Positions 1 to 22,508 of a DNA stretch of 22,508 nucleotides are shown piece after piece. The stretch covers positions 1 to 22,508 of IMG/VR virus record IMGVR_UViG_3300025127_000313. The stretch is one strand, 5' to 3'. Source of the DNA: a virus. The position numbers and the translations under genes are program-made. Each line of letters starts with the position of its first letter. Position 1 is the first letter of the stretch. The notes beneath the pieces were generated by a model that searched no databases, was not told the origin of the DNA, and saw nothing but the letters and a program-made list of their open reading frames with translations.

Positions 1-1049
1 CCCTCTAAATGCCATCCTTCTGGCTTCATCGCTGTAAAAGCAAACTGCAAACCCTCATCGTGAAACCAGTTGTCTTCGTCGTCTACATCGGGGCAAAAAG
101 CTAAAAAATTTCTTTTTTGCTGGTTGTAACTTCCTGTATAGTTTTCTCCGCATCTTAAATTTGTCCAAAGAACAGCGTACTTAACATCTACTTCATCTAC
201 AGAGGGGTTACTTGAAGTAGTAACGCAAGCTCCACAGGGTTCATAACTAATGCATGAAGTTCCCAGTGTAGGGTCAGGTACATTGCCCTCCGAATCCTCT
301 GCGTTGCACCAAGATGGACACTGGGAGTATTCTTCAGTGAGATTGTTATTATTTATTTGTACGCTTACATTGAAAGGGTATCCCCCAGACGGGTTGTGAG
401 TATTTGTACCCGAAAATTCCGTGGGGTTTTCGTCGCATCCGCTAGTTACAAAATCATAAAATTTAAACAAACCAACACTGCCCGATGCACCTGTATCTCC
501 ATCCCAACTTAAATCACCATCAATCTCATAATAAAAAACTTCATCTAGACTGTCTGTTTCGTATAGTTCTGACTTATCAAAGCAATAAAGATGCTCTCCC
601 GAAACACTAACACTTCCCGAAGTGCTTACTTGCATTTCCCCAGATAGGGGCGATAGTCTAATGCCATTTTCATCTCTATTAAAATTACAAGTAGCGGTTA
701 TTGTTTTTTGTAGGTTGGTGGCTGTAACACTCACCGATGATCCCCACCCTCTTTCGGGGGGGTTCGTAGTTACTGCGTCTGGTCCACTAACATCTCCCGC
801 GGTATATCCAGTCATTACTACTTGTCCATAATATCTTGATCCGTCGGATACACCACTTAAAATTTTTGGTTGACTTTCGCTCACGCAAATTAGAGTTGGA
901 GTTGGGCAAGGACAAATAGTCCTATAGTTAAATTCAATTGGTCCTGCCTCTTCGTTCATGCCCGCGTAATTATATCCCTTACAGCAATGTCCTATAAGAG
1001 CAATGCTTTCCGCGTCATTAATTTTTTCTCTAAATTCTGAGTCCGTCAT
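1..1049 (-). CDS. Cysteine-rich protein, C-terminus cut by left window edge
   Basis: The minus-strand frame is open from the ATG at 1049 to the window edge, giving 349 codons without a stop. It begins MTDSEFREKINDAESI. The visible part holds about 17 cysteines, often as close pairs (HCC near the start, ICPCP, SQCPSWC, CISYEPCGAC, FCPD), which suggests disulphides or metal binding. The remainder is rich in Gly, Ser, Thr and Asp and looks like beta-strand. No signal peptide or membrane segment is visible. The ATG directly follows the TAA of the upstream gene, so it is probably translationally coupled to the tail-type genes at 1050-6237. That placement suggests a tail tip, fibre or receptor-binding accessory protein; I do not recognise the family. 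The gene is real by length and coupling; the function is a guess from context. Confidence 0.8.
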   Translation of the reverse strand, partial: MTDSEFREKINDAESIALIGHCCKGYNYAGMNEEAGPIEFNYRTICPCPTPTLICVSESQPKILSGVSDGSRYYGQVVMTGYTAGDVSGPDAVTTNPPERGWGSSVSVTATNLQKTITATCNFNRDENGIRLSPLSGEMQVSTSGSVSVSGEHLYCFDKSELYETDSLDEVFYYEIDGDLSWDGDTGASGSVGLFKFYDFVTSGCDENPTEFSGTNTHNPSGGYPFNVSVQINNNNLTEEYSQCPSWCNAEDSEGNVPDPTLGTSCISYEPCGACVTTSSNPSVDEVDVKYAVLWTNLRCGENYTGSYNQQKRNFLAFCPDVDDEDNWFHDEGLQFAFTAMKPEGWHLE

Positions 1050-1475
1050 TTAATCGCTTGTTGATGATGTTGAAGTATTTCTGACCAAGATGGTTGCATC
1101 CATTTCTTCACCGTCGATACAAAGACTAACCCTAGCAGTTATCCACCCACCAGCTTCAACTCCAGATTCCGAGGGAATTGATTCAAACGAAGTATCAGCT
1201 GTTCTATCAATTCGATCAATAGAGTCGTCTCCTATTCTTGATCCAGAAAGACTTTTATTAGCATCCTCTTGCCTTTTTAATTCAGCAAGATTTTTCTTAT
1301 AGTTTTCTTTGATTTGTCTGCGAGTTTCAGTAGAATTTGTATTGTTTGCTCTATCTATTTTGTATTGTCGCTTGAGATCAAAGAATTTTTTTCTCGCTTC
1401 TCTTCTCTTGTTTCCAGCTTGAACTCTGGCTTTTGAGGCATCGTTTTTTTTATCTATTTCGCTTTGCTCTGGCAT
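1050..1475 (-). CDS. Small coiled-coil protein, probable tail accessory
   Basis: This encodes 141 residues. Residues 1-75 are highly charged and alanine-rich (MPEQSEIDKKNDASK, then many K/R/E) and look like a long basic helix or coiled coil. Residues 100-135 look like a small beta domain (GVEAGGWITARVSLCIDG). The ATG sits just after the stop of the 1586-residue repeat protein. The sequence GGAGGAGG ends 5 bases before the ATG and doubles as the C-terminal glycine codons of that upstream gene, so it is a strong ribosome binding site and implies coupled translation. The gene then runs directly into the Cys-rich gene at 1049. No known family is recognised. A role in tail assembly is inferred only from position. 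Confidence 0.8.
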   Translation of the reverse strand: MPEQSEIDKKNDASKARVQAGNKRREARKKFFDLKRQYKIDRANNTNSTETRRQIKENYKKNLAELKRQEDANKSLSGSRIGDDSIDRIDRTADTSFESIPSESGVEAGGWITARVSLCIDGEEMDATILVRNTSTSSTSD

Positions 1476-1476
1476 A

Positions 1477-4400
1477 TTAACCTCCTCCTATACTTCCGTA
1501 GCCACCATCACTGCCACCGCTACTACTTCCTATAGTGGTTGCCTCGGCTCTAGCTGGAATGGTAGCAACTATTTCTGTATGCTTATATATAATTTTACCA
1601 TCGCTTGATGGACTGGTAGAGGATGAACTAGAACCTTCTCCTCCCCCCTCACCAGAACTTTCTTCTCCAGAACTTTCAGATGAAGTTGTCGTAGCCTCAC
1701 TCAAAAACTCAGCCTCGACCTCAACTTTATAATCCAAAGTATACTCCTTGTCCTCTGGGTCTTCTGGTCCATCTTTTACTTGAATTAAATATTTTGTACC
1801 CCCCCAAAGTCTCCTGCCAGCAACCATATCCCAATTATTTCCTTCGTCATTTGTTCCAAGTGCAGTAGCGTAATACATGTTAACTTTGCTGTCGTCAATT
1901 CTGTATCCCCTAAATCCTTGGGACTCAGAGAAGGGTGTGTAATTCCAACCTATTCCGCTGGTTAACCCCATAGCCCATCTTTCTGGACACCATAGCCCCT
2001 CTTGCCCAGTATACTCTTCCATTTCGGGGGACTCTGTATAAAAAACTTTTTGGGTGGCTTTAATTAATTTTTCTACAGGGGGTTCTAAAACAAAATCCTT
2101 TGCAGTAAAGCTGTAGGTAGCATTGTCTCCAGATGGAAGTTCAACTGTATTAATAAATACAACTCCTGGATATGTAAAACTAACTAGCGTTTCCTTATCC
2201 GTTGATTTGTCTTTTCCTAAAATTGTTCCGCCATTTGTACTTTCTAAACTTACAACGGTTACTGTTTGAAACCCATCGTGATCCTCCGTTGTTTCTGAAA
2301 TAACTGGTCCAACAATAGTCTCATCATCCTCCCTTGCTTTTTGTCCAAAAAAGACGGTAGTTACCCTCACCATTCCATCACCAGCACTAACTCTTTCCTT
2401 GGATAAAATTCCAGTTTCAGTCTCAGTTTTTTCTAAAGAAAATAAACCACTTCCTTCAATTACATTAAAGCTAGTAAGAACTTTAGCATCAGCTGATTCT
2501 CCTCCAGTTCCTACTGTTAAACCACTGGGTTCTTCTGTTGAAATTTCGTATGTAGTTACTGACTCCAAGCCATTTTCCAGAGTTTCCTTCGTAGTATATG
2601 TTTTTAATTTAAACCTAAATGTTGTTGTTTCAATTCCGTCTAAATCGCTTTTAAATTCATCTATAAGTTCATGACCTTCGGTTACTTCTTCCAGCTTGCT
2701 TTCTACCTCGCTTTTAGTGAATGCAAAGGCTTGAACATCAATAATGTCTCCGCCTTCAATAAATTCCTGCCTAACATTAAGAATGCTCTTCCTTAAAAAT
2801 GTGTAAACAAAAGTTTCTTTTCCTAATTCTCCGCTTTTTTCCTTTCTAGCTACTACAAAATCCCCTTGGTGTTCTCCTGCGGCAGACGGAGAAATACTCT
2901 CCGCATCCTCCGTTTCGGGTTCTTCATCGCCAAATTTAGTAATTACTAAAGCCTCTTGAGCACCCACAAGGTCAATCCTAGAAGAAACTATTACATTTTC
3001 CTTTGCAAATGTAAACCTCTTCGTGGGGATACCGTCTACGTCGGACTCCTCTTCTCTTAGCAGTAAGTATTCACTCTTTTCATCCGCATCATCGTTGGGC
3101 TTAAATATTTCTTCTACTATAGTCCCCAAGGTGGATTCCTTGTCTTCAGTTTTCGACAGAACTGCTCCTTGCTGTAAAAAAGTATATCTAATTGTGGGGA
3201 TGCCCTCGAAGTCTGATTTTTCTCTGCGTGCTTCTATATGTCCATCGTCACCCGTTACCAAGTTAGTGCCAGAAACATCTTTTCCAGTTATGTCTTCTGA
3301 TTCTGCTGGTGGAAAAAAGACTTCGTTTATTACAGCGTTTTGACTTCCCACCTTATCCTCTGATACTGAAAGGATAGTATTTTTTTTGAGAAATGTATAT
3401 TTTATTGTAGGTATACCATCGAAGTTAGATTTTTCTCTGCGAGCCTCTTGGTATCCGTTTTCACCGTCTGACAATTCAACACCTGCAACATCCTGTCCCT
3501 TTATTCCTTCTTCATCTGTTGGCGGGAAAAACACTTCGTTAACTACAGCTAATTGACTACCTATTCTATCTTCGGTAACCAAGAGAGTAACATTCTTTTT
3601 CAAGAAGGTGTATTTAATGGTGGGTATACCATCAAAATTAGACTTCTCCCTACGAGCCTCTTGGTATCCAGTCTCATCAGTAGGTAGGGCAGTACCATCA
3701 ACGTCTTGTCCCGCTATATCTTCTGATTCCGCTGGCGGGAAAAACACTTCATTAATAACTGCCCTTTGACTTCCCACCCTGTCTTCGGATACCAGCAGAG
3801 TAGTGTTCTTTTTTAAGAAGGTGTATCTAATTGTGGGTATACCGTCAAAGTCCGATTTTTCTCTGCGGATTTCCGCGTAGCCATCGTCCCCGTCGGATAA
3901 AGCTGTACCATCAATATCTATTCCATTTATATTTTCGTCTGCCTCTTTTGGAAGAAAAACCTCATTGACGATTGTGTTTTGACTACCCAACTTGTCCTTG
4001 GATACAAATAATGTAGAATTCTTTTTGAGGAAAGTAATTCTAAATGTAGGTATACCATCAAAGTTAGATTTTTCTTCTCTTGCCTTCTGGTATCCTCCAT
4101 CGACTTCTTGAGTAAGATTATTTCCAGATATGTCTATTCCAAAAAACGCACTCTTGGGTTTAAATACCTCATTGATAACTGCCTTCTGGCTTCCTACTGA
4201 GTCCTCAGATACAAACAATACTGTATTTTTTTGCAAGAACGTAAGCCTAAATGTAGGTATGCCATTAAAGTTAGATTTTTCCCTACTAACTTCCTCATAT
4301 CCTTCGTCGTCAGTTCCTAGGTCTGCTCCCGATGCATCAATTCCATTAATTGACTCAGATGGTGGAGAAAAAATTTCGTTGATAATTCTCTTTTGACTAC

Positions 4401-6225
4401 CCAGCTTATCTTCGGATACTGAAAGAGTAGTATTCTTTTTAAGAAAAGTAATTCTTACCGTGGGTATTCCATTAAAATCTGATTTATCTTTTCTTGCTTC
4501 TGCATAGCCATCATCCCCAGTGTCTAAAGCCGCATCATCTTCGTCTACTCCAGCAAATCCATCCTTTGGGTCAAAAACTTCGTTAGTTATTGATAGCTGA
4601 CTCCCAACTTTATCAGAAGATACGGACAAGACGGAGTTCTTTTGTAGAAACGTGTAAACAAATGTTTTTAAACCCTCTTCACCTTCTTCTTCTTTCCTTG
4701 CAACCACATACCCATCTGCGTCAGAAGCACCAAAAAATTCTTCCGCCTCGCTGACTGTGGGGGCTTCTTCAAATTTTCTAATAACAACAGCTTGCTGAGA
4801 ACCAACGAGTTCTAAAGATTGAGAGATTATTGCTTTTTCTTTGACAAAAGTAAATCTTGTTGTGGATATGCCCTCTACATTGGACTCCTGCTGATCAATT
4901 AATTTATAACTATCTTTTTGGTCTGAATTATTATCTGGCTCAAATATTTCTTCTACTATAGTGCCAAGAGCTGAATCCTTATCTTCGGATTTAAAAAGTA
5001 TTGAGTTCTTTGCTAAAAATGTGTATGTAAATGTTTGTAATAACTCCTCTCCGCTTTCTTCCCTTTTAGCTACGCTATAATCGTGAGAGCCACCAGCAAA
5101 TGACTTCGCTTCGGCTACGTTTGGTTCTTCTTGGAACTTAGTAATAACTACCGCCCTCTGAGACCCCACTGCATCAAAGGATTGAGATATAATCGCTTTA
5201 TTTTTTGAAAACGTAAATCTAGTAGTTGGAACTCCGTCTACATTAGAGGATTCTTCTCTAAGTAAAGAAAAATTAGATAAAGTATTTCTTCCTGCCGCTG
5301 GCTTAAAAAATTCTTTGGATATTGTTTGCAGTGCGGATTCCTTGTCCTCAGTCTCGGACAACTGCACATCTTCTTCCAAAAATGTATAAGTAAAAATTTT
5401 TACTTGATCCTTGCCCTCTTCTTCTTTTTTAGCAACAAAGTAAGTTCCACTCCCTCCAAATGTTTGGGCTTCTGTAGTAGTGGGTGCTGTTTTAAACTTA
5501 CTAATAACGACGGATTGCTGAAAGCCGACAGCATCAAAGGATTGAGATATAATTGCATCGTCCTTATAAAACGTAACTCTTTGAGTCTTAATACCATCTA
5601 CGTCGGATTCCTCTCGCTTTACTTCAGTAAAGCCAGTCTTTGATGGGCTTGTTGCAGTGGGATGAAATATTTCTTCTATAGCGATTTCAAGCGAACCCAA
5701 CTTGTCTTCACTTGTAGAAAGGGTTACATTGGGTTTAAGAAAAGTGTACCTATTTGTTTTTATCCCCTTAAAATTGCTTTCTTCTTTTCTTGCAGGGACA
5801 TAATCCTCTGGGGTTTCGGGAGCAGTTCCAATGGTTTCTATTACCTTGGCTTTTTGAGAACCAACTTCTTCAATACTTTCAAATAGAGTTCCTTCCTCTA
5901 CATAAACTTGGGTTAACTCAGCGAATGCCGTGTTGTCTTCTACCTTAGAACTAGACAGTATTTCGCCACTTGATAGGGACGAACTACCCACTGTGCCCGT
6001 GTCAGAAGTTCCAGACTGTGCTCGAAAAACTTTTGTTATTCTTTTTAAACCGTTTTCTAAAACCTCAACGGTGGGATCGGTTATTTCTACAAAACTGCCA
6101 GTAAGAGTTTCGTAAGTTTTTACAAGAACTGGACTATCGGAGTTTGCTTGATCCGAAAAATTATCTACTTCAACGGATATTAGTCTACAGTCAGTGTAGC
6201 CCTGCCATTTCTTCTCCAGTTGCAT
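1477..6225 (-). CDS. Giant tandem-repeat tail-type protein
   Basis: About 1582 residues from ATG 6225, which has GGAG six bases upstream; a TTG at 6237 would add four residues. An N-terminal domain of about 140 residues (GYTDCRLISVEVDN, VKTYETLTGSFVEITDP) is followed by about 16 tandem repeats of roughly 57-71 residues at about residues 140-1150. Typical repeat landmarks are REKSNFDGIPT, YTFLKKN, SEDKVGSQ and INEVFFPP. A divergent beta-rich region follows, then a domain with a WCPERWAMGL motif near residue 1410. The C-terminus is Ser/Gly/Glu low-complexity and ends in GYGSIGGG. No enzyme motif was seen. Length, repeats, lack of a signal peptide and position late in the structural operon fit a tail fibre, tail-tip or other extended virion protein; this is inference. 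The 5' end overlaps a 65-codon ORF in another frame, so the true N-terminus is uncertain. Confidence 0.85.
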   Translation of the reverse strand: MQLEKKWQGYTDCRLISVEVDNFSDQANSDSPVLVKTYETLTGSFVEITDPTVEVLENGLKRITKVFRAQSGTSDTGTVGSSSLSSGEILSSSKVEDNTAFAELTQVYVEEGTLFESIEEVGSQKAKVIETIGTAPETPEDYVPARKEESNFKGIKTNRYTFLKPNVTLSTSEDKLGSLEIAIEEIFHPTATSPSKTGFTEVKREESDVDGIKTQRVTFYKDDAIISQSFDAVGFQQSVVISKFKTAPTTTEAQTFGGSGTYFVAKKEEEGKDQVKIFTYTFLEEDVQLSETEDKESALQTISKEFFKPAAGRNTLSNFSLLREESSNVDGVPTTRFTFSKNKAIISQSFDAVGSQRAVVITKFQEEPNVAEAKSFAGGSHDYSVAKREESGEELLQTFTYTFLAKNSILFKSEDKDSALGTIVEEIFEPDNNSDQKDSYKLIDQQESNVEGISTTRFTFVKEKAIISQSLELVGSQQAVVIRKFEEAPTVSEAEEFFGASDADGYVVARKEEEGEEGLKTFVYTFLQKNSVLSVSSDKVGSQLSITNEVFDPKDGFAGVDEDDAALDTGDDGYAEARKDKSDFNGIPTVRITFLKKNTTLSVSEDKLGSQKRIINEIFSPPSESINGIDASGADLGTDDEGYEEVSREKSNFNGIPTFRLTFLQKNTVLFVSEDSVGSQKAVINEVFKPKSAFFGIDISGNNLTQEVDGGYQKAREEKSNFDGIPTFRITFLKKNSTLFVSKDKLGSQNTIVNEVFLPKEADENINGIDIDGTALSDGDDGYAEIRREKSDFDGIPTIRYTFLKKNTTLLVSEDRVGSQRAVINEVFFPPAESEDIAGQDVDGTALPTDETGYQEARREKSNFDGIPTIKYTFLKKNVTLLVTEDRIGSQLAVVNEVFFPPTDEEGIKGQDVAGVELSDGENGYQEARREKSNFDGIPTIKYTFLKKNTILSVSEDKVGSQNAVINEVFFPPAESEDITGKDVSGTNLVTGDDGHIEARREKSDFEGIPTIRYTFLQQGAVLSKTEDKESTLGTIVEEIFKPNDDADEKSEYLLLREEESDVDGIPTKRFTFAKENVIVSSRIDLVGAQEALVITKFGDEEPETEDAESISPSAAGEHQGDFVVARKEKSGELGKETFVYTFLRKSILNVRQEFIEGGDIIDVQAFAFTKSEVESKLEEVTEGHELIDEFKSDLDGIETTTFRFKLKTYTTKETLENGLESVTTYEISTEEPSGLTVGTGGESADAKVLTSFNVIEGSGLFSLEKTETETGILSKERVSAGDGMVRVTTVFFGQKAREDDETIVGPVISETTEDHDGFQTVTVVSLESTNGGTILGKDKSTDKETLVSFTYPGVVFINTVELPSGDNATYSFTAKDFVLEPPVEKLIKATQKVFYTESPEMEEYTGQEGLWCPERWAMGLTSGIGWNYTPFSESQGFRGYRIDDSKVNMYYATALGTNDEGNNWDMVAGRRLWGGTKYLIQVKDGPEDPEDKEYTLDYKVEVEAEFLSEATTTSSESSGEESSGEGGGEGSSSSSTSPSSDGKIIYKHTEIVATIPARAEATTIGSSSGGSDGGYGSIGGG
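2770..5805 (-). repeat. Tandem repeat array within the giant protein gene
   Basis: About 16 in-frame units of roughly 170-215 bp make up most of the gene. Three sub-types are visible. One has (N/D)FxGIPTxRxTFLKKN and ends near NEVFFPP plus an acidic GxDVxGxxL linker. A second has (N/D)VDGIPTxRFTFxKxxAIISQS and VVIxKF. A third has EEGxxxxxTFTYTFL. The second and third types alternate in the N-terminal half of the array. The first type is then repeated about seven times in a row (about 3200-4540). The most alike copies lie near 3300-3900, consistent with recent expansion. Unit boundaries are read from the protein by eye. Confidence 0.85.
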
Positions 6226-6388
6226 CCAACGCTCCAAAGTCCCCCATGAGAGAACCCAAGTTTGAGTTGTCTACATCTTCTCTAGTAAACTTATGAAAAC
6301 GCCTAATTACCCTAATTCGATTATTAGGTAGCTTTACAATTTCTGGGATTTGACCCTTTTGATGTATATTGGTATTTCCTAAACTCAT
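6191..6388 (-). CDS. Short ORF, possible N-terminal part of the giant protein
   Basis: This encodes 65 residues (MSLGNTNIHQKGQIPEIVKL, then RIRVIRRFHKFTREDVDN) and ends at a TGA. Its ATG overlaps the stop of the 91-residue gene upstream by ATGA. Its last 35 bases overlap the giant repeat gene from ATG 6225 (47 bases from TTG 6237), which is in the +1 frame. The protein looks well formed until it stops abruptly just where the other frame becomes GYTDCRLISVEVDN. It may therefore be a separate small gene with coupled restart, the first part of a frameshifted product, or the result of an indel. No family is recognised. A role in the tail is inferred from position. Confidence 0.65.
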   Translation of the reverse strand: MSLGNTNIHQKGQIPEIVKLPNNRIRVIRRFHKFTREDVDNSNLGSLMGDFGALDATGEEMAGLH

Positions 6389-12047: not shown

Positions 12048-13097
12048 TTATGCAGTGAAATCTTTGATCATACCTAGACCATTTGGTCCACGGCAAATTA
12101 GAGTTCCCATTGCATCGATGTAGCCACGAGGACCTCCACCTTGGTCTTCCAACATTGTTGAACCCATGCTCATTGCTTCTGCGTATCCAAGTAGGCTTGG
12201 GTCGAGAAGGTATGCACGTTTTTGGTTGGGTAATGTCTTTGGATTAGCGGAGATGATCTTCACGATACCGTAAGGACCTTGGAAGATTTCAACATTGAAG
12301 TTGATATCTGTGCCATCACCTTGGTTGAAAGTAGTAGCAGTTGGGCTTACGCGAGTAAAGCCATCAATGATAGCGTTACGGACGGTTGTGCCAGCAACAA
12401 GAACGTGGTCGCCTTGCTCACCAGTTTCTTCAAAGATGCTTGTAAGCATTCCGTTGAAACGAGACTCAGTTAACCCAGCCGCGGCTTCTGCTGTAGTTGC
12501 TGATGAGTCTGCACCAACACCCAAGACAGATGCTTCTGGAGTCTTGAACGCATCGGGAACTTCTTGAACAGCGTCCGAGGATTGCGTTCCCGAACCAGCT
12601 TCTAATGTTGGATCAAGCCAAACACCTAGTCCGCGGAATTCACCAGCGGTAGAGCTAGAACCAAGTACAGCGGGATTGTCCGAAGCGATTGATGTTTCAA
12701 TGTCCCGAAGGAGTTGAGAAGCCGCTTTTTCTTCAGCTTCTTGGATGCGAACTGGAGTTACGGAGTCAAAAATCTCCTGCTTCTTAGATACATTAAATGT
12801 ATCGCGGAAGTGCTGTAGGCGATTGCCCAAGCGAGTAAGACTACCGAACTGACCCACAAAGGAGTCGCCACCAGAAGTACCAACGTCTACGCCTTCAACG
12901 ACAGCGTTGTCGGCTACTGGAGTACGAAGATTGTCAACAGTCCATTCGACAAGATCAGCGGTTGCACCCTGCTTTGGGAGCATACCATAAATAGGAGCTT
13001 GACGAGGAGCAAGAACAGTTGTTAAGTCCAACAACTGCTCACGATTACCAGATGCGGACCCCGTAGGAGGTCCAGAATATGTATTATCAAATGCCAT
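12048..13097 (-). CDS. Major capsid protein, SU10/DUF5309-like
   Basis: This encodes 349 residues, the usual size for this group. The N-terminus has LTTVLAPRQAPIYGMLPKQG, followed by VEWTVDNLRTPV, NAVVEGVDV, NRLQHFRDTFNVSKKQEIFD and ASQLLRDIETSIASDN. This order (P-(I/V)-Y-x-M-L-P, then (E/H)W, then NAVVEG, then a VS-x-(T/K)Q helix, then a RDIE helix) matches the SU10-type HK97-fold capsid family (DUF5309). No delta-domain or protease fusion is visible; assembly probably uses the acidic scaffold protein just upstream. The start codon has no clear ribosome binding site (AATATAATATC before ATG). Codon use looks slightly more regular and GC-richer than the neighbours, as expected for a highly expressed gene. 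Confidence 0.9.
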   Translation of the reverse strand: MAFDNTYSGPPTGSASGNREQLLDLTTVLAPRQAPIYGMLPKQGATADLVEWTVDNLRTPVADNAVVEGVDVGTSGGDSFVGQFGSLTRLGNRLQHFRDTFNVSKKQEIFDSVTPVRIQEAEEKAASQLLRDIETSIASDNPAVLGSSSTAGEFRGLGVWLDPTLEAGSGTQSSDAVQEVPDAFKTPEASVLGVGADSSATTAEAAAGLTESRFNGMLTSIFEETGEQGDHVLVAGTTVRNAIIDGFTRVSPTATTFNQGDGTDINFNVEIFQGPYGIVKIISANPKTLPNQKRAYLLDPSLLGYAEAMSMGSTMLEDQGGGPRGYIDAMGTLICRGPNGLGMIKDFTA

Positions 13098-18087: not shown

Positions 18088-18466
18088 GAGTATAGATTAT
18101 TTCGTGCCTATAAAAATCTTCGTTGTTTTTGGTTATAACTTGAGCCTTGAATATCAAGCCCCTACGCATTAAATTGGTGTGCGTATAGGGAACTGAGACC
18201 CGAACTTTTTTGATGGGCTTTTCTAGTAGCTTGCAATTAAAGAACATTGGGTTTGGGGTGGAATCAATAACTTGTACCCTAACGAACTTCGGGGTTAATG
18301 CATCGTCATCCTTGTTTTCTAGGTATTTTTTTATTTTTTTGACCCCAGAGGGCAAAATGTGCCTTGTTTTTTCTAGGTAATCCTCCTCGTTGCACACTTT
18401 TTTTCGTATTTTACCCACTTGAAGCGGGGTTAACCCATATATTTCTGCTATTTCTTTTGCTTTCAT
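18044..18466 (-). CDS. Helix-turn-helix protein, possible packaging or regulatory factor
   Basis: This encodes 140 residues. Residues 1-24 (MKAKEIAEIYGLTPLQVGKI) form a helix-turn-helix of the type found in small terminases and resolvase-like domains (AEIYGLTPxQV). The remainder is beta-rich and basic (RVQVIDSTPNP, VRVSVPYTHTNLMRRGLIFK). It starts in the TAATG that ends the large terminase; GGGAGG seven bases upstream is a good ribosome binding site hidden in that gene's last codons. It could be a second terminase-like DNA-binding protein or a regulator. The small terminase role is better assigned to the gene at 20713-21345. Confidence 0.7.
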   Translation of the reverse strand: MKAKEIAEIYGLTPLQVGKIRKKVCNEEDYLEKTRHILPSGVKKIKKYLENKDDDALTPKFVRVQVIDSTPNPMFFNCKLLEKPIKKVRVSVPYTHTNLMRRGLIFKAQVITKNNEDFYRHEIIYTREINRQKRIQEIHQ

Positions 18467-20115
18467 TAATAACCTCCCGTTAATCTTACTTGTTCAAAGT
18501 CCAAATCGGTGTAATGTATTGGACCGTCTCCAGCGTTTGCCATACGCAGGTATCTAATTAAATCAAAAAAATCCTTTAGTGCTTCATCGTTTTTGCCTTG
18601 AGCATTATAATTAATTAAACTGTCAATTAGGTTGCCGCAGGATTCGTGTATAAAACACTTGGGTTTATTGGCTTCATCTAGTTCGTAATTTGGGTTGTAG
18701 CTAAACCATTCGTCCAGTGCTTGTATGCCTACGATCTCCTGCCTGCCGTCTGAGGGAACAAAATTAAAATCGTATTCCGCAAAGGAAGCAAATAAGTCTA
18801 GGTTATTTTCGTTTTCTCTAGCAAAATACCTAGAGTCCCCTATGCGTTCAAAGACCTCTATACCTAGCTCCTCTTCAATTTCGTCGAATAGAGCACAATA
18901 TCCTTGAACGTCTAATCCAATCTTTTTTGAGGCTGGTCCGTATTTCCATTTTTCCCCGAATAAAGCCCACTCCCCGTATGTATCTCTGTCGGGAAACTCC
19001 TTCGAGATATATACATTTCCATGTTCATCCACGGAGGACCATATAGAGCAAAAATTTCTGTTACCCGCGGGGTCTACCACTTGGTAGTGAGTAAACGCAT
19101 CCGTCGTTATATCTGGAAATGTCCAGCCCTCGGAGTTGGGTTCTTCTCCCAGTACTTGAACTTCTGTAGAAAATAAAGGCAGTAAAGAGGTAATGCTTTT
19201 GACTGGTATGCCGTATGCACGCACCATTATTTCTTCGTCTGGTCTGCCCTCTAAGTCCTTTTTTATACGCTCGTATCCCCCAAAGGGGTTTTCGTCGGAA
19301 TGCAAATACACTACTTGGGCATCCCTGCTGGGAGCATATTGCAATACTGGGACTTCTTCACCACGCAGGAGTTCTGCGGGTCTAGTTTCCAGAGTTCTTG
19401 CATTTTTTTGATATTCAGCTACAAAGGGCGTAAACCCATCAATGGGTGTAAAACCCAACAGCATCTTGGAGTTTCTGGTAGCAAGTCGGAATCGAAGGGT
19501 ATTTACTAGAGTTGCGTCCCCCAAGTATTCGTCTAACCATGCCCCTATATTTAACTCTGGGTCTCCTTTGAATCCAAATTCAAATCCCTCTAGGATTGTC
19601 TGATTGTTGGAAAACTGGGTGTATGTCTTGAAATCCACTCGGGTTCTCGTGTCTGGGAATATAAATGAAGACCCAGTAAAACCATTCTGCATACTGAAGT
19701 TGATATATCCCTCTATGCTTTTGGTTTTCTTCTTGAACTCCTTGGGCATCATTTCCCAAACTGCGGCTTGCTGAACTTTAACAGAGGTATCTGCGTTTTG
19801 ACTAAAGCAAACTATATGACCATCTTGGTTTTTAGTTACCGCTTGCATAATTAATTTAGCACATCCCGTGGTTTTTCCGCTTCTGTTACCTCCAAGTGCA
19901 AGAACCTCATTGTATTTATCTAAACCCTTTCGGATTCTATCCCATCCTTTTAAGTCAAATCCATGGCGAAGGGGGTCTTCTTGTGATGCCCTTATAACGC
20001 CCTCACGCACCCTATAAAGCTCTTGAAGAGCTTCGGGGTCACTCTCCCCTAGGAGAACGATTTCTTCGTCTGTAGGGGCTTCTATGAGTGGATGCGGGGT
20101 AAACGTGATTTCCAT
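18466..20115 (-). CDS. terL: Terminase large subunit (packaging ATPase/nuclease)
   Basis: This encodes 549 residues. A Walker A motif is visible at residues 75-83 (GGNRSGKTT), preceded by ALALG-like strand residues. A likely Walker B and catalytic carboxylates are at 190-196 (IGAWLDE). The coupling region has MLLGFTPIDGFTPF. The nuclease part has YQVVDPAGNRNFCSIW at about 344-359, with Asp348 as a candidate metal ligand, and later GLDVQGYCALF and FNFVPSDGRQE. It cuts the concatemer and drives DNA into the head through the portal. Length is normal for this family. The ATG at 20115 overlaps the stop of the sulfotransferase-like gene by one base (TAATG). The enzyme looks intact. Confidence 0.92.
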   Translation of the reverse strand: MEITFTPHPLIEAPTDEEIVLLGESDPEALQELYRVREGVIRASQEDPLRHGFDLKGWDRIRKGLDKYNEVLALGGNRSGKTTGCAKLIMQAVTKNQDGHIVCFSQNADTSVKVQQAAVWEMMPKEFKKKTKSIEGYINFSMQNGFTGSSFIFPDTRTRVDFKTYTQFSNNQTILEGFEFGFKGDPELNIGAWLDEYLGDATLVNTLRFRLATRNSKMLLGFTPIDGFTPFVAEYQKNARTLETRPAELLRGEEVPVLQYAPSRDAQVVYLHSDENPFGGYERIKKDLEGRPDEEIMVRAYGIPVKSITSLLPLFSTEVQVLGEEPNSEGWTFPDITTDAFTHYQVVDPAGNRNFCSIWSSVDEHGNVYISKEFPDRDTYGEWALFGEKWKYGPASKKIGLDVQGYCALFDEIEEELGIEVFERIGDSRYFARENENNLDLFASFAEYDFNFVPSDGRQEIVGIQALDEWFSYNPNYELDEANKPKCFIHESCGNLIDSLINYNAQGKNDEALKDFFDLIRYLRMANAGDGPIHYTDLDFEQVRLTGGY

Positions 20116-20720
20116 TACTCGTAGTTAAGTTTTAAAAAATCATCCTTGTATAGGGATTTAATTATTTTTTTAGTTTCCTCCGTATGCATATCGTCGTAAT
20201 ACGGATCATGGTGGGGGTTTGAATTAAACATGGATCGCTCGAACTCCTTGGGTAGCCCTAGATCGGCATATATTTCAGAGTTATCCTCCTCTAATTTAAT
20301 ATATTGAACATCGTATTTACTGGAATCCGCCCAAGATACTTGGGGAGCATAGAATCTCATTCCTGTGGTTATACTTGGGTCTTTAAAATTTTTATGATTG
20401 TGTATATTTTTTACAAAATCCTCGAAACCCTGTTTTTTTTCTGGCAAATCCCATCCCTTTAGTATTGTCTCAGCAAAAAACGCAGAGGGTACTCTGTTCA
20501 TTGGGTTTCTCGCTGTTTGATATATTTTCCAGTTTTCTATATCGTTAATTTTATGGTGTTCAATTAGTTCATCTAGATACCCATGTAGTTTATTTCCATG
20601 CCAAGTGTATCCATGGGAAAACTTATATTTGTAAATAATGTTGGCAAAGCTCCTAACTAAGGATTGCGTCCCAGTTTTAGGGGGTAGCAATATTATTTTT
20701 TTGCTTTCTTTATTAATCAT
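20115..20720 (-). CDS. Sulfotransferase-family protein
   Basis: This encodes 201 residues. ILLPPKTGTQSLVRSF at residues 10-25 matches the 5'-phosphosulfate-binding loop (PKTGTxSL) of PAPS-dependent sulfotransferases. YQTARNPMNRVPSAFF at residues 67-82 matches the 3'-phosphate-binding motif (RNPxxRxxSxF), with Arg71 and Ser79. The C-terminus ends DDFLKLNYE, like the usual end of this family. It should move a sulfuryl group from PAPS to a carbohydrate or other acceptor; the acceptor is unknown. AGGAGG six bases before the ATG is a strong ribosome binding site. It overlaps small terminase by 8 bases and large terminase by 1. Length is short but includes both cofactor motifs. Likely an auxiliary gene for modification of host or virion glycans. 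Confidence 0.85.
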   Translation of the reverse strand: MINKESKKIILLPPKTGTQSLVRSFANIIYKYKFSHGYTWHGNKLHGYLDELIEHHKINDIENWKIYQTARNPMNRVPSAFFAETILKGWDLPEKKQGFEDFVKNIHNHKNFKDPSITTGMRFYAPQVSWADSSKYDVQYIKLEEDNSEIYADLGLPKEFERSMFNSNPHHDPYYDDMHTEETKKIIKSLYKDDFLKLNYE

Positions 20721-21577: not shown

Positions 21578-21897
21578 TACATGAGTATAAATATCTTATT
21601 GCATAGAGAAATGTATGTCAGACGCATGCCAGAAATTCTGGTTATTCTATTTTTAGTGGGTGCAGTTCAGTGGCAATTTTCTGCCGTTTTATCCCAATTT
21701 ATTTTACCCCAAATACATAAGTCGTTGATTATCAAAACTATGGACAACCCTATATATATCACTTTATTCTTGCACATTGATCGGGTTAACTCAATAATGG
21801 TTCTCATATTCCAACTCTGACCATCAATGATGCGAGTTCCGAATATGCTTCTCAACCAGCTAAGTGACATCCGAGCGAAATACGCCATGACCGATGC

Positions 21898-21925
21898 TTG
21901 CCAAGATGCTGGGTAGGATTATAAG
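21898..21925 (+). promoter_or_regulatory. Candidate rightward promoter
   Basis: TTGCCA (21898-21903), 16 bases, then TATAAG (21920-21925) resembles a sigma70 promoter. A start near 21932 would put the ribozyme within the 5' leader of the gene at 22043. The 16-base spacing is slightly short, and a hairpin lies at the predicted start. An upstream candidate, TTGCAC-N17-AATAAT near 21772-21800, is weaker. Confidence 0.35.
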
Positions 21926-21945
21926 CCACCAGTTGGATCGGTGGC
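21925..21945 (+). other. Hairpin upstream of the ribozyme
   Basis: GCCACC (21925-21930) pairs perfectly with GGTGGC (21940-21945) around a nine-base loop, AGTTGGATC. It ends eight bases before stem II of the hammerhead and may belong to the same structured leader, for example by supporting stem II or stopping interfering folds. Confidence 0.55.
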
Positions 21946-21952
21946 GAGACGA

Positions 21953-22001
21953 GACCGAAACGCAAATTGCGTCCAGTGCTGTCTGCACTGCTGATGAGGT
22001 C
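21953..22001 (+). ncRNA. Type II hammerhead self-cleaving ribozyme
   Basis: All elements are in the right order. Stem II 5' strand GACC (21953-21956); core GAAA (21957-21960); stem III CGCA/TGCG (21961-21964 with 21968-21971) with loop AAT; cleavage triplet GTC (21971-21973), so cutting is expected after C21973; stem I CAGTGC/GCACTG (21974-21979 with 21985-21990) with loop TGTCT; core CTGATGA (21991-21997); stem II 3' strand GGTC (21998-22001). Every invariant base of the CUGAUGA...GAAA...UH core is present and all stem positions pair by Watson-Crick rules. Stems I and III are closed and stem II is open, which defines type II, a form known mainly from prokaryotic and metagenomic DNA. Cutting would leave a 69-base leader with 5'-OH on the downstream gene. 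Activity is predicted, not shown. Confidence 0.9.
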
Positions 22002-22042
22002 AGAATATCCTCAGTTAACCAATAATAAAAATACATAAAATC

Positions 22043-22508
22043 ATGAATAACAACCGTATACTACAAAACTGGCTAAGAGATTTCTCAGACGAGGAATTAC
22101 TGCACAATGCTAATACCAACCGCACTGACATAAGAAATGGTAAACAATCCCAGCTTAGAGAATGGGTGGGAAAAATGGGTGGTGATCCCGATGAGTTAAT
22201 CAAAGCACATGACGATGGTGATGATGCACAGAGAAAGCTGGATGCCATGCGAGACATATTTGGTGGTGGATCAATCGATCCCGATCAAGTGAAGGACATC
22301 GTGGACGATGTGATAAGCACAGATGTAAAACCAACCATTGATGATCTCAACAACAAGGTAGATCAGCTAGCACCACTCGCTGATACATTGGATCGAATCG
22401 CTGATGCAATGAAGGGTGGAACATCTAATCGCCTACCGATCGCCACTGCTGTGGCAAGTGGTAAAAATCCCATCCTTGAAGTGGTCGCACCATATTATAC
22501 TGCTGGTG
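22043..22508 (+). CDS. Rightward gene of unknown function, C-terminus cut by window edge
   Basis: The plus-strand frame is open from ATG 22043 to the window end, 155 codons. It begins MNNNRILQNWLRDFSDEELL. The region is acidic and helical (LIKAHDDGDDAQRKLDAMRD; IDPDQVKDIVDDVISTDVKP), with a coiled-coil-like segment (LNNKVDQLAPLADTLDRIAD), and then GTSNRLPIATAVASGKNPIL and VVAPYY. The leader is AT-rich without a ribosome binding site of AGGAGG type. This layout, a helical N-terminal part then a region with 'NPILExxxPYY', is compatible with the start of a phage MoxR/CobS-type AAA ATPase, but no Walker motif lies inside the window, so this is only a guess. It is the first gene of the rightward unit and directly follows the ribozyme. 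Confidence 0.75.
   Translation, partial: MNNNRILQNWLRDFSDEELLHNANTNRTDIRNGKQSQLREWVGKMGGDPDELIKAHDDGDDAQRKLDAMRDIFGGGSIDPDQVKDIVDDVISTDVKPTIDDLNNKVDQLAPLADTLDRIADAMKGGTSNRLPIATAVASGKNPILEVVAPYYTAG

Follow-up and report, generated by a model that had tools for sequence, protein, structure and literature searches.

The 22,508-base phage fragment analysed here (the window) carries, in the gap between divergent genes, a short segment that a preliminary description, made from the sequence alone, had read as a complete hammerhead ribozyme of type II, located in a phage gene's leader. Is this segment a genuine ribozyme, and what would its cleavage do to the transcript in which it lies? The phage is probably marine, a label derived from its genes and its metagenome company, not from metadata. 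Its structural genes, among them those of the capsid (12048-13097) and the terminase (18466-20115), are on the minus strand, and the candidate ribozyme stands in the divergent gap, reading rightward.

The hammerhead and its downstream gene

Read directly from the sequence, positions 21953-22001 of the plus strand constitute a full type II hammerhead with the stem order II-III-I-II. The 5' strand of stem II (GACC, 21953-21956) pairs with GGTC at 21998-22001 to give an open stem of 4 bp. The segment 21957-21973 then holds the GAAA (21957-21960), the stem III hairpin (C21961-G21971) and C17 (C21973), the pair A21960-U21972 (A15.1-U16.1) closing stem III. Stem I is a 6-bp hairpin (21974-21990; CAGTGC 21974-21979 with GCACTG 21985-21990) with the 5-nt loop UGUCU, and is followed by the catalytic core CUGAUGA (21991-21997), whose N7 is U21995. 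The conserved elements CUGANGA, GAAA and UH (cleavage after H17) are thus all present, as CUGAUGA, GAAA and UC, and the minimum free energy structure of the 57-nt window RNA (-17.6 kcal/mol) is exactly the hammerhead fold. Pairing between loop I and the tail is limited to 3 bp at most (UCU/AGA), non-Watson-Crick contacts being invisible to the method. Cleavage is predicted 3' of C21973; it would leave a leader of 69 nt up to the ATG at 22043, with the stem I hairpin as the 5' end of the cleaved mRNA. The A-rich stretch from the ribozyme to the start codon (22002-22042) holds no Shine-Dalgarno-like sequence.

The preliminary description is borne out base for base: its coordinates, core bases, cleavage site and distance to the ATG were right, and the minimum free energy fold, the covariation and the match to the covariance model R2 presented below agree with it. 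The 14 pairs that it had counted are all intact, and their number becomes 15 once A15.1-U16.1 is included.

The attribution to the leader of a rightward phage gene also holds. By homology, this gene (22043-22508, plus strand, ending at the window edge) encodes the N-terminal part of an AAA ATPase-like protein. Its product is 36% identical to a 475-aa homologue with a P-loop/AAA motif, an LFLDEV motif and a weak phrog_249 match, beyond which Pfam, PHROG and PDB gave no identity for the downstream protein. In a relative, the next protein after the homologue has a VWA-like motif, DMSGSM. A sigma-70 promoter scan near the leader was uninformative (7 sites versus 3.2 expected). That the transcript is an early one, as had been proposed, and that the window RNA is actually cleaved, we infer. 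The sole close annotated phage, C75C1 (terminase 71%), had no detectable copy and was rejected as a ribozyme-bearing annotated relative; phages of this kind can thus do without the element.

Covariation and covariance models

The core string occurs once in the window and in none of 100 shuffles. To assess the stems, alignment A1 was assembled from 34 distinct hammerheads, which came from 36 loci related to a neighbouring gene and from a pattern scan of IMG/VR. The cells of stems II, III and I were paired in 100, 96.5 and 100% of cases, with 161 double-sided changes versus 46 in shuffles, and the signal collapsed when the partners were slid; in reading these figures, it should be kept in mind that pairing was already demanded by the motif scan at collection. 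For this reason, a sequence pattern provided a cleaner test. The pattern fixed only the core, the two stem III bases flanking it and loop I. All six stem I pairs and all four stem II pairs were found in 23/23 distinct viral matches, and in 0/7 of the matches obtained from 257 Gb of bacterial and archaeal genomes. As these seven are chance matches only, the idea that bacterial genomes contain hammerheads with exactly this type of loop was rejected. We likewise dropped a loop I-tail pseudoknot as a general feature of the sub-class, the corresponding cells of A1 being paired in 57% of cases.

Furthermore, the covariance model R2, trained on 13 hammerheads from other phages and including no sequence of the window's phage group, gave a single match in the window, which is the 21953-22001 site (53.9 bits; E 7.7e-16, a rough value from a short calibration). 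The preliminary description had stated that the lack of a significant covariance-model hit would speak against the ribozyme. Taken literally, this is what was observed with Rfam: RF02276 did not match the window at its gathering score, which is a curated cut-off and not a structural feature, nor at E<=10. A covariance match was obtained once a model, R2, had been built from other phages. RF02276 is silent on the window because its stem II has 2 bp, its loop I is larger and its tail reads AGCC. From this model, the close analogues of other phages receive 28-35 bits, the gathering cut-off being 37, with E 5e-5 in a local search.

The silence of Rfam is also the sole point in favour of a chance look-alike or a DNA-level palindrome, to which we give a negligible probability. 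It is refuted by the covariation in A1, the control on 257 Gb of genomes (0/7) and the R2 match, and a chance match disagrees as well with the 0/100 shuffles. It was concluded that the window ribozyme is real and of a known kind, within a sub-class missed by Rfam.

Placement between genes and predicted pairing of the tail

Related contigs carry one to four copies each, before successive rightward genes, with two to four in the relatives L008, L011, L013 and G003; the window, which ends inside the next gene, has one. Wherever a relative extended far enough upstream (about 1 kb or more, uncut within the element), a canonical or variant copy was present. L028 and L035 have no copy within the 743-772 nt available, and the copy of L026 is farther out, about 945 nt upstream. 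An unrelated contig, G020 (L071), contains eight type II hammerheads in 4 kb (263-4359, minus strand), each directly 5' of a small gene. Up to four copies, and eight in G020, before successive genes point to the processing of multi-gene transcripts. The effect on stability or translation of a single message, put forward in the preliminary description, fits these data and gives a partial picture of them.

Some leader hammerheads of the relatives are variants (L003:399-460, L004:3147-3208, L006:295-356, L014:3162-3223 and L021:3129-3196, all on the minus strand). The variant leader copies have a U.U beside GAAA at the base of stem II and a loop I-tail pseudoknot of 5-6 bp (UGGCU/AGCCA). In L008, L011, L013 and L015, near-identical units of hammerhead plus leader stand before different small genes. 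In L069 (465-746, plus strand), a small membrane protein with a marginal match to TMEM65 (PF10507) is encoded between two hammerheads.

When 46 copies were examined with respect to neighbouring codons, an ATG was found 20-56 nt after stem II in 45/45 scorable cases (null 0.17). For most intercistronic copies, the preceding stop codon ends 3-9 nt before GAAA, and in the intercistronic copies of the relatives it overlaps or abuts the 5' strand of stem II. The window copy is a leader copy with no adjoining stop codon, no gene ending near its stem II 5' strand. An independent test was carried out on two new phage sets, picked by core and stem II sequence only, in which 153/176 of the distinct matches listed had paired stems I and III. 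Among these listed matches, the stop of an ORF was located 3-8 nt from the end of the stem II 5' strand in 81% of the 153, an ATG 10-60 nt after stem II in 90%, and both in 73%; when one was retained per flank cluster, still among the matches listed, the values were 78, 86 and 67% of 92. For the stop, random positions gave a null of 2.7% and uniform placement in gaps one of 14%; the null for the ATG was 23%. A similar placement was seen in most Rfam-grade hammerheads from the genomes of one bacterial phylum. Since cleavage would take place downstream of the stop codon, every message would retain its own. Judged against open-licence full texts, the codon-exact placement of phage type II hammerheads between genes appears to be new; a text search showed that stop codons are unmentioned in the main text of Perreault et al. 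2011 (PMC3088659).

A tail reading xUCAG, able to pair with the CUGAN of the core, stands right after stem II in 79 distinct copies. The base x is the Watson-Crick partner of N7 in 79/79 (45 U-A, 34 C-G, 0 mismatches), and it is the only tail position that shares significant information with N7. All 23 of the independent flank clusters were matched (14 and 9), for which the counts give an exact probability of about 1e-6, and a looser count on 341 copies agrees with the matching. No tails are commoner than ATCAG and GTCAG; xTCAG tails covarying with N7 are exemplified by L092, L099, L102, L111, L117 and others (tails after CTGANGAGGCC). For the uncut RNA of xUCAG copies, the median predicted probability is 0.99 for the core-tail hairpin and 0.01 for stem II, and this hairpin is also predicted to dominate in the cleavage product. 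According to these predictions, it buries the catalytic core and excludes stem II, and could serve as an off state or as a post-cleavage lock. Measured against open-licence full texts, a covarying core-tail hairpin in a sub-class also appears to be new.

The window has its own competing hairpins after the ribozyme (21991-22013, plus strand), predicted by RNAfold; an analogous hairpin covaries in other phages. One pairs CUGAU with GUCAG (21991-21995 with 21999-22003; 5 bp, one G.U) and the other UGAGG with CCUCA (21995-21999 with 22009-22013). Each excludes stem II, and the latter is preferred by RNAfold once the tail is present. With the downstream tail, the RNAfold probability of stem II is about 0.02, a figure that ignores tertiary contacts and co-transcriptional order, and on this modelling the window ribozyme could be slow or off. 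Outside the xUCAG class, comparison of real with shuffled tails showed that stem II was not significantly more disfavoured (p 0.09), and a general tendency of tails against stem II beyond that class was rejected. For this reason, selection for the window's own hairpins is not claimed.

Predicted consequences of cleavage, alternatives and neighbouring elements

The reading that we favour, with a probability of about 0.8, is that of a type II hammerhead trimming the leader of the rightward divergent phage transcript. The sequence, the conservation of the fold, the position relative to genes and the covariation were observed directly, and from these we infer transcription, cleavage and effects on decay or translation. 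The nascent RNA would fold and then cut itself 3' of C21973. The upstream fragment would carry a 2',3'-cyclic phosphate at its end, which the stem III hairpin closes, and the mRNA of the AAA ATPase-like protein would start with a 5'-OH exactly at the stem I hairpin, 69 nt before its AUG. In the relatives, a hammerhead between successive genes, starting at the stop, would split a long transcript into gene-length mRNAs hairpin-closed at both ends. Such ends should resist both 5'-phosphate-dependent decay and 3' exonucleases. In the xUCAG sub-class, pairing of the 3' tail with the core may lock the product against re-ligation or keep the uncut ribozyme off.

Cleavage by hammerheads leaves 2',3'-cyclic phosphate and 5'-OH ends. 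Among the permutations, type II alone would close both newly made ends as hairpins, with stem III at the upstream 3' end and stem I at the downstream 5' end. Since both cleavage ends would be closed in this way, the production of gene-length protected mRNAs is the most economical explanation. The benefit to stability should follow from known decay pathways, and translation gating is a live alternative.

The spacing of stop and ATG might be a side effect of tight phage genomes, the ribozymes serving to process transcripts and nothing more. Such compact packing is quite possible, though short of an even chance: phage gaps are short, uniform placement in them alone yields the 14% given above, and A2 and G3 beside stem II may be required by the ribozyme and suit UAG/UAA by chance. 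The 78-81% observed among the matches listed far exceeds 14%, but this is indecisive, as a shrinking genome would also press the ribozyme onto the stop. Rather doubtful, and a little below compact packing in our estimate, is a conditional ribozyme, or natural switch, in which the tail pairs with the core so that uncut RNA is normally off, and a ribosome, a protein or the folding order decides. Ribosomes ending at the overlapping stop would cover stem II, and translation of the upstream gene would then gate cleavage. The complete N7-tail match, over copies as over flank clusters, the predicted predominance of the hairpin over stem II in xUCAG RNAs and the contact of the stop codon with stem II argue for a switch. 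However, the same hairpin could form simply after cleavage, when stem II dissociates; tails outside the xUCAG class have no significant effect; and the window copy, which is without an upstream gene, has just the 5-bp version with one G.U.

It is improbable that the copies are relics of a selfish or recombination module, spread with their leaders as cassette boundaries and having no current role in mRNA processing. The near-identical units before different small genes (L008, L011, L013, L015) do suggest an exchange of gene cassettes. Against a relic, compensatory changes keep the stems paired and the core is intact, whereas unused ribozymes would decay, and no integrase or transposase was noticed in passing in the ORF lists near the copies. 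Beyond the trimming of the window leader, we tentatively propose, at rather less than even odds, that many phage type II hammerheads are switchable intergenic punctuation, starting at the stop, ending just before the next ribosome-binding region and sharing a conserved CUGAN/N'UCAG fold, with ribosomes or folding order deciding whether the operon is cut.

The occurrence of type II hammerheads close to phage genes is not new (Perreault 2011, PMC3088659), and a processing role was suggested for the clusters flanking prophage genes (Perreault et al., PMC3088659). Tandem phage hammerheads cleave in vitro, and one array does so in E. coli (PMC3088659); a halovirus hammerhead is found 13 nt before a start codon, in agreement with a mapped 5' end (PMC3088659). 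What hammerheads do in bacteria and phages has been termed an open question (PMC3088659, PMC6155905). The window ribozyme shares with type II of RF02276 (PMC3088659) the permutation, the core, closed stems I and III, an open stem II and the bacterial or phage setting; tandem copies around phage genes recur in its relatives. It differs by its stem II of 4 bp instead of about 2 bp, its 5-nt loop I and its score under the cut-off. In well-studied type II ribozymes, the tertiary contact between stems I and II is often a loop I-tail pseudoknot, as described in PMC3088659; the window copy is without a strong one, whereas the variant first copies of the relatives have UGGCU/AGCCA. Similarly, HHphage of haloviruses HF1/HF2 (PMC3088659; PMC7230728) is a hammerhead a few nt before a start codon. 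It precedes the first gene of an early transcript, with a mapped 5' end matching the cut, but belongs to an archaeal virus, has a core variant and stands before a helicase gene. The prophages of Azorhizobium, Agrobacterium and Clostridium scindens (PMC3088659) have clustered hammerheads, with single genes of a common transcript flanked by several of them, as would be the case in the relatives here. All of those cleave in vitro (PMC3088659). The present group differs in being one of free, probably marine phages with unrelated genes, and in a position defined to the codon. This codon-exact position and the covarying core-tail hairpin turn 'near phage genes' into specific claims on the cutting, capping and perhaps timing of phage mRNAs, and the type II model of Rfam overlooks a sub-class with a longer stem II.

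Upstream of the ribozyme, a second conserved structured element (P1-P3; 21849-21919, plus strand) was identified by covariation and by a covariance model, R3. It comprises P1 (21856-21860/21908-21912), P2 (around 21867-21871/21893-21896) and P3 (21875-21877/21883-21885), its apical part reading AGC..ARUA.GCCAUGAC. The hairpin P4 (21925-21945, plus strand; GCCACC/GGUGGC, loop AGUUGGAUC) follows directly 5' of the ribozyme; in the relatives, its loop GUUGG is invariant, and the stem letters change with pairing kept. The P1-P4 structure (about 21849-21945) occurs in 14 distinct sequences just 5' of leader hammerheads. The covariation score of P1-P3 was 0.56 versus 0.15 in shuffles, P1 being poorly aligned and 61% paired. 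R3, built without the window, matched the element there (49.7 bits, E 2e-11), and in a scan of the collection nearly all matches to the element pattern fell within this phage group. The element has no Rfam match; P1-P4 appears to be a new structured RNA upstream of the ribozyme, and our guess is a leader-bound regulatory or antitermination-like function.

Elsewhere in the window, a 1586-aa protein (1477-6237, minus strand), which has no PHROG match, contains many repeats of roughly 40-80 aa (..EKSNFDGIPTFRLTFLKKNTVLSVSEDKVGSQ..) and is possibly a tail or fibre protein. A sulfotransferase-like gene (20115-20720, minus strand), with a weak phrog_3347 match, adjoins the terminase gene.
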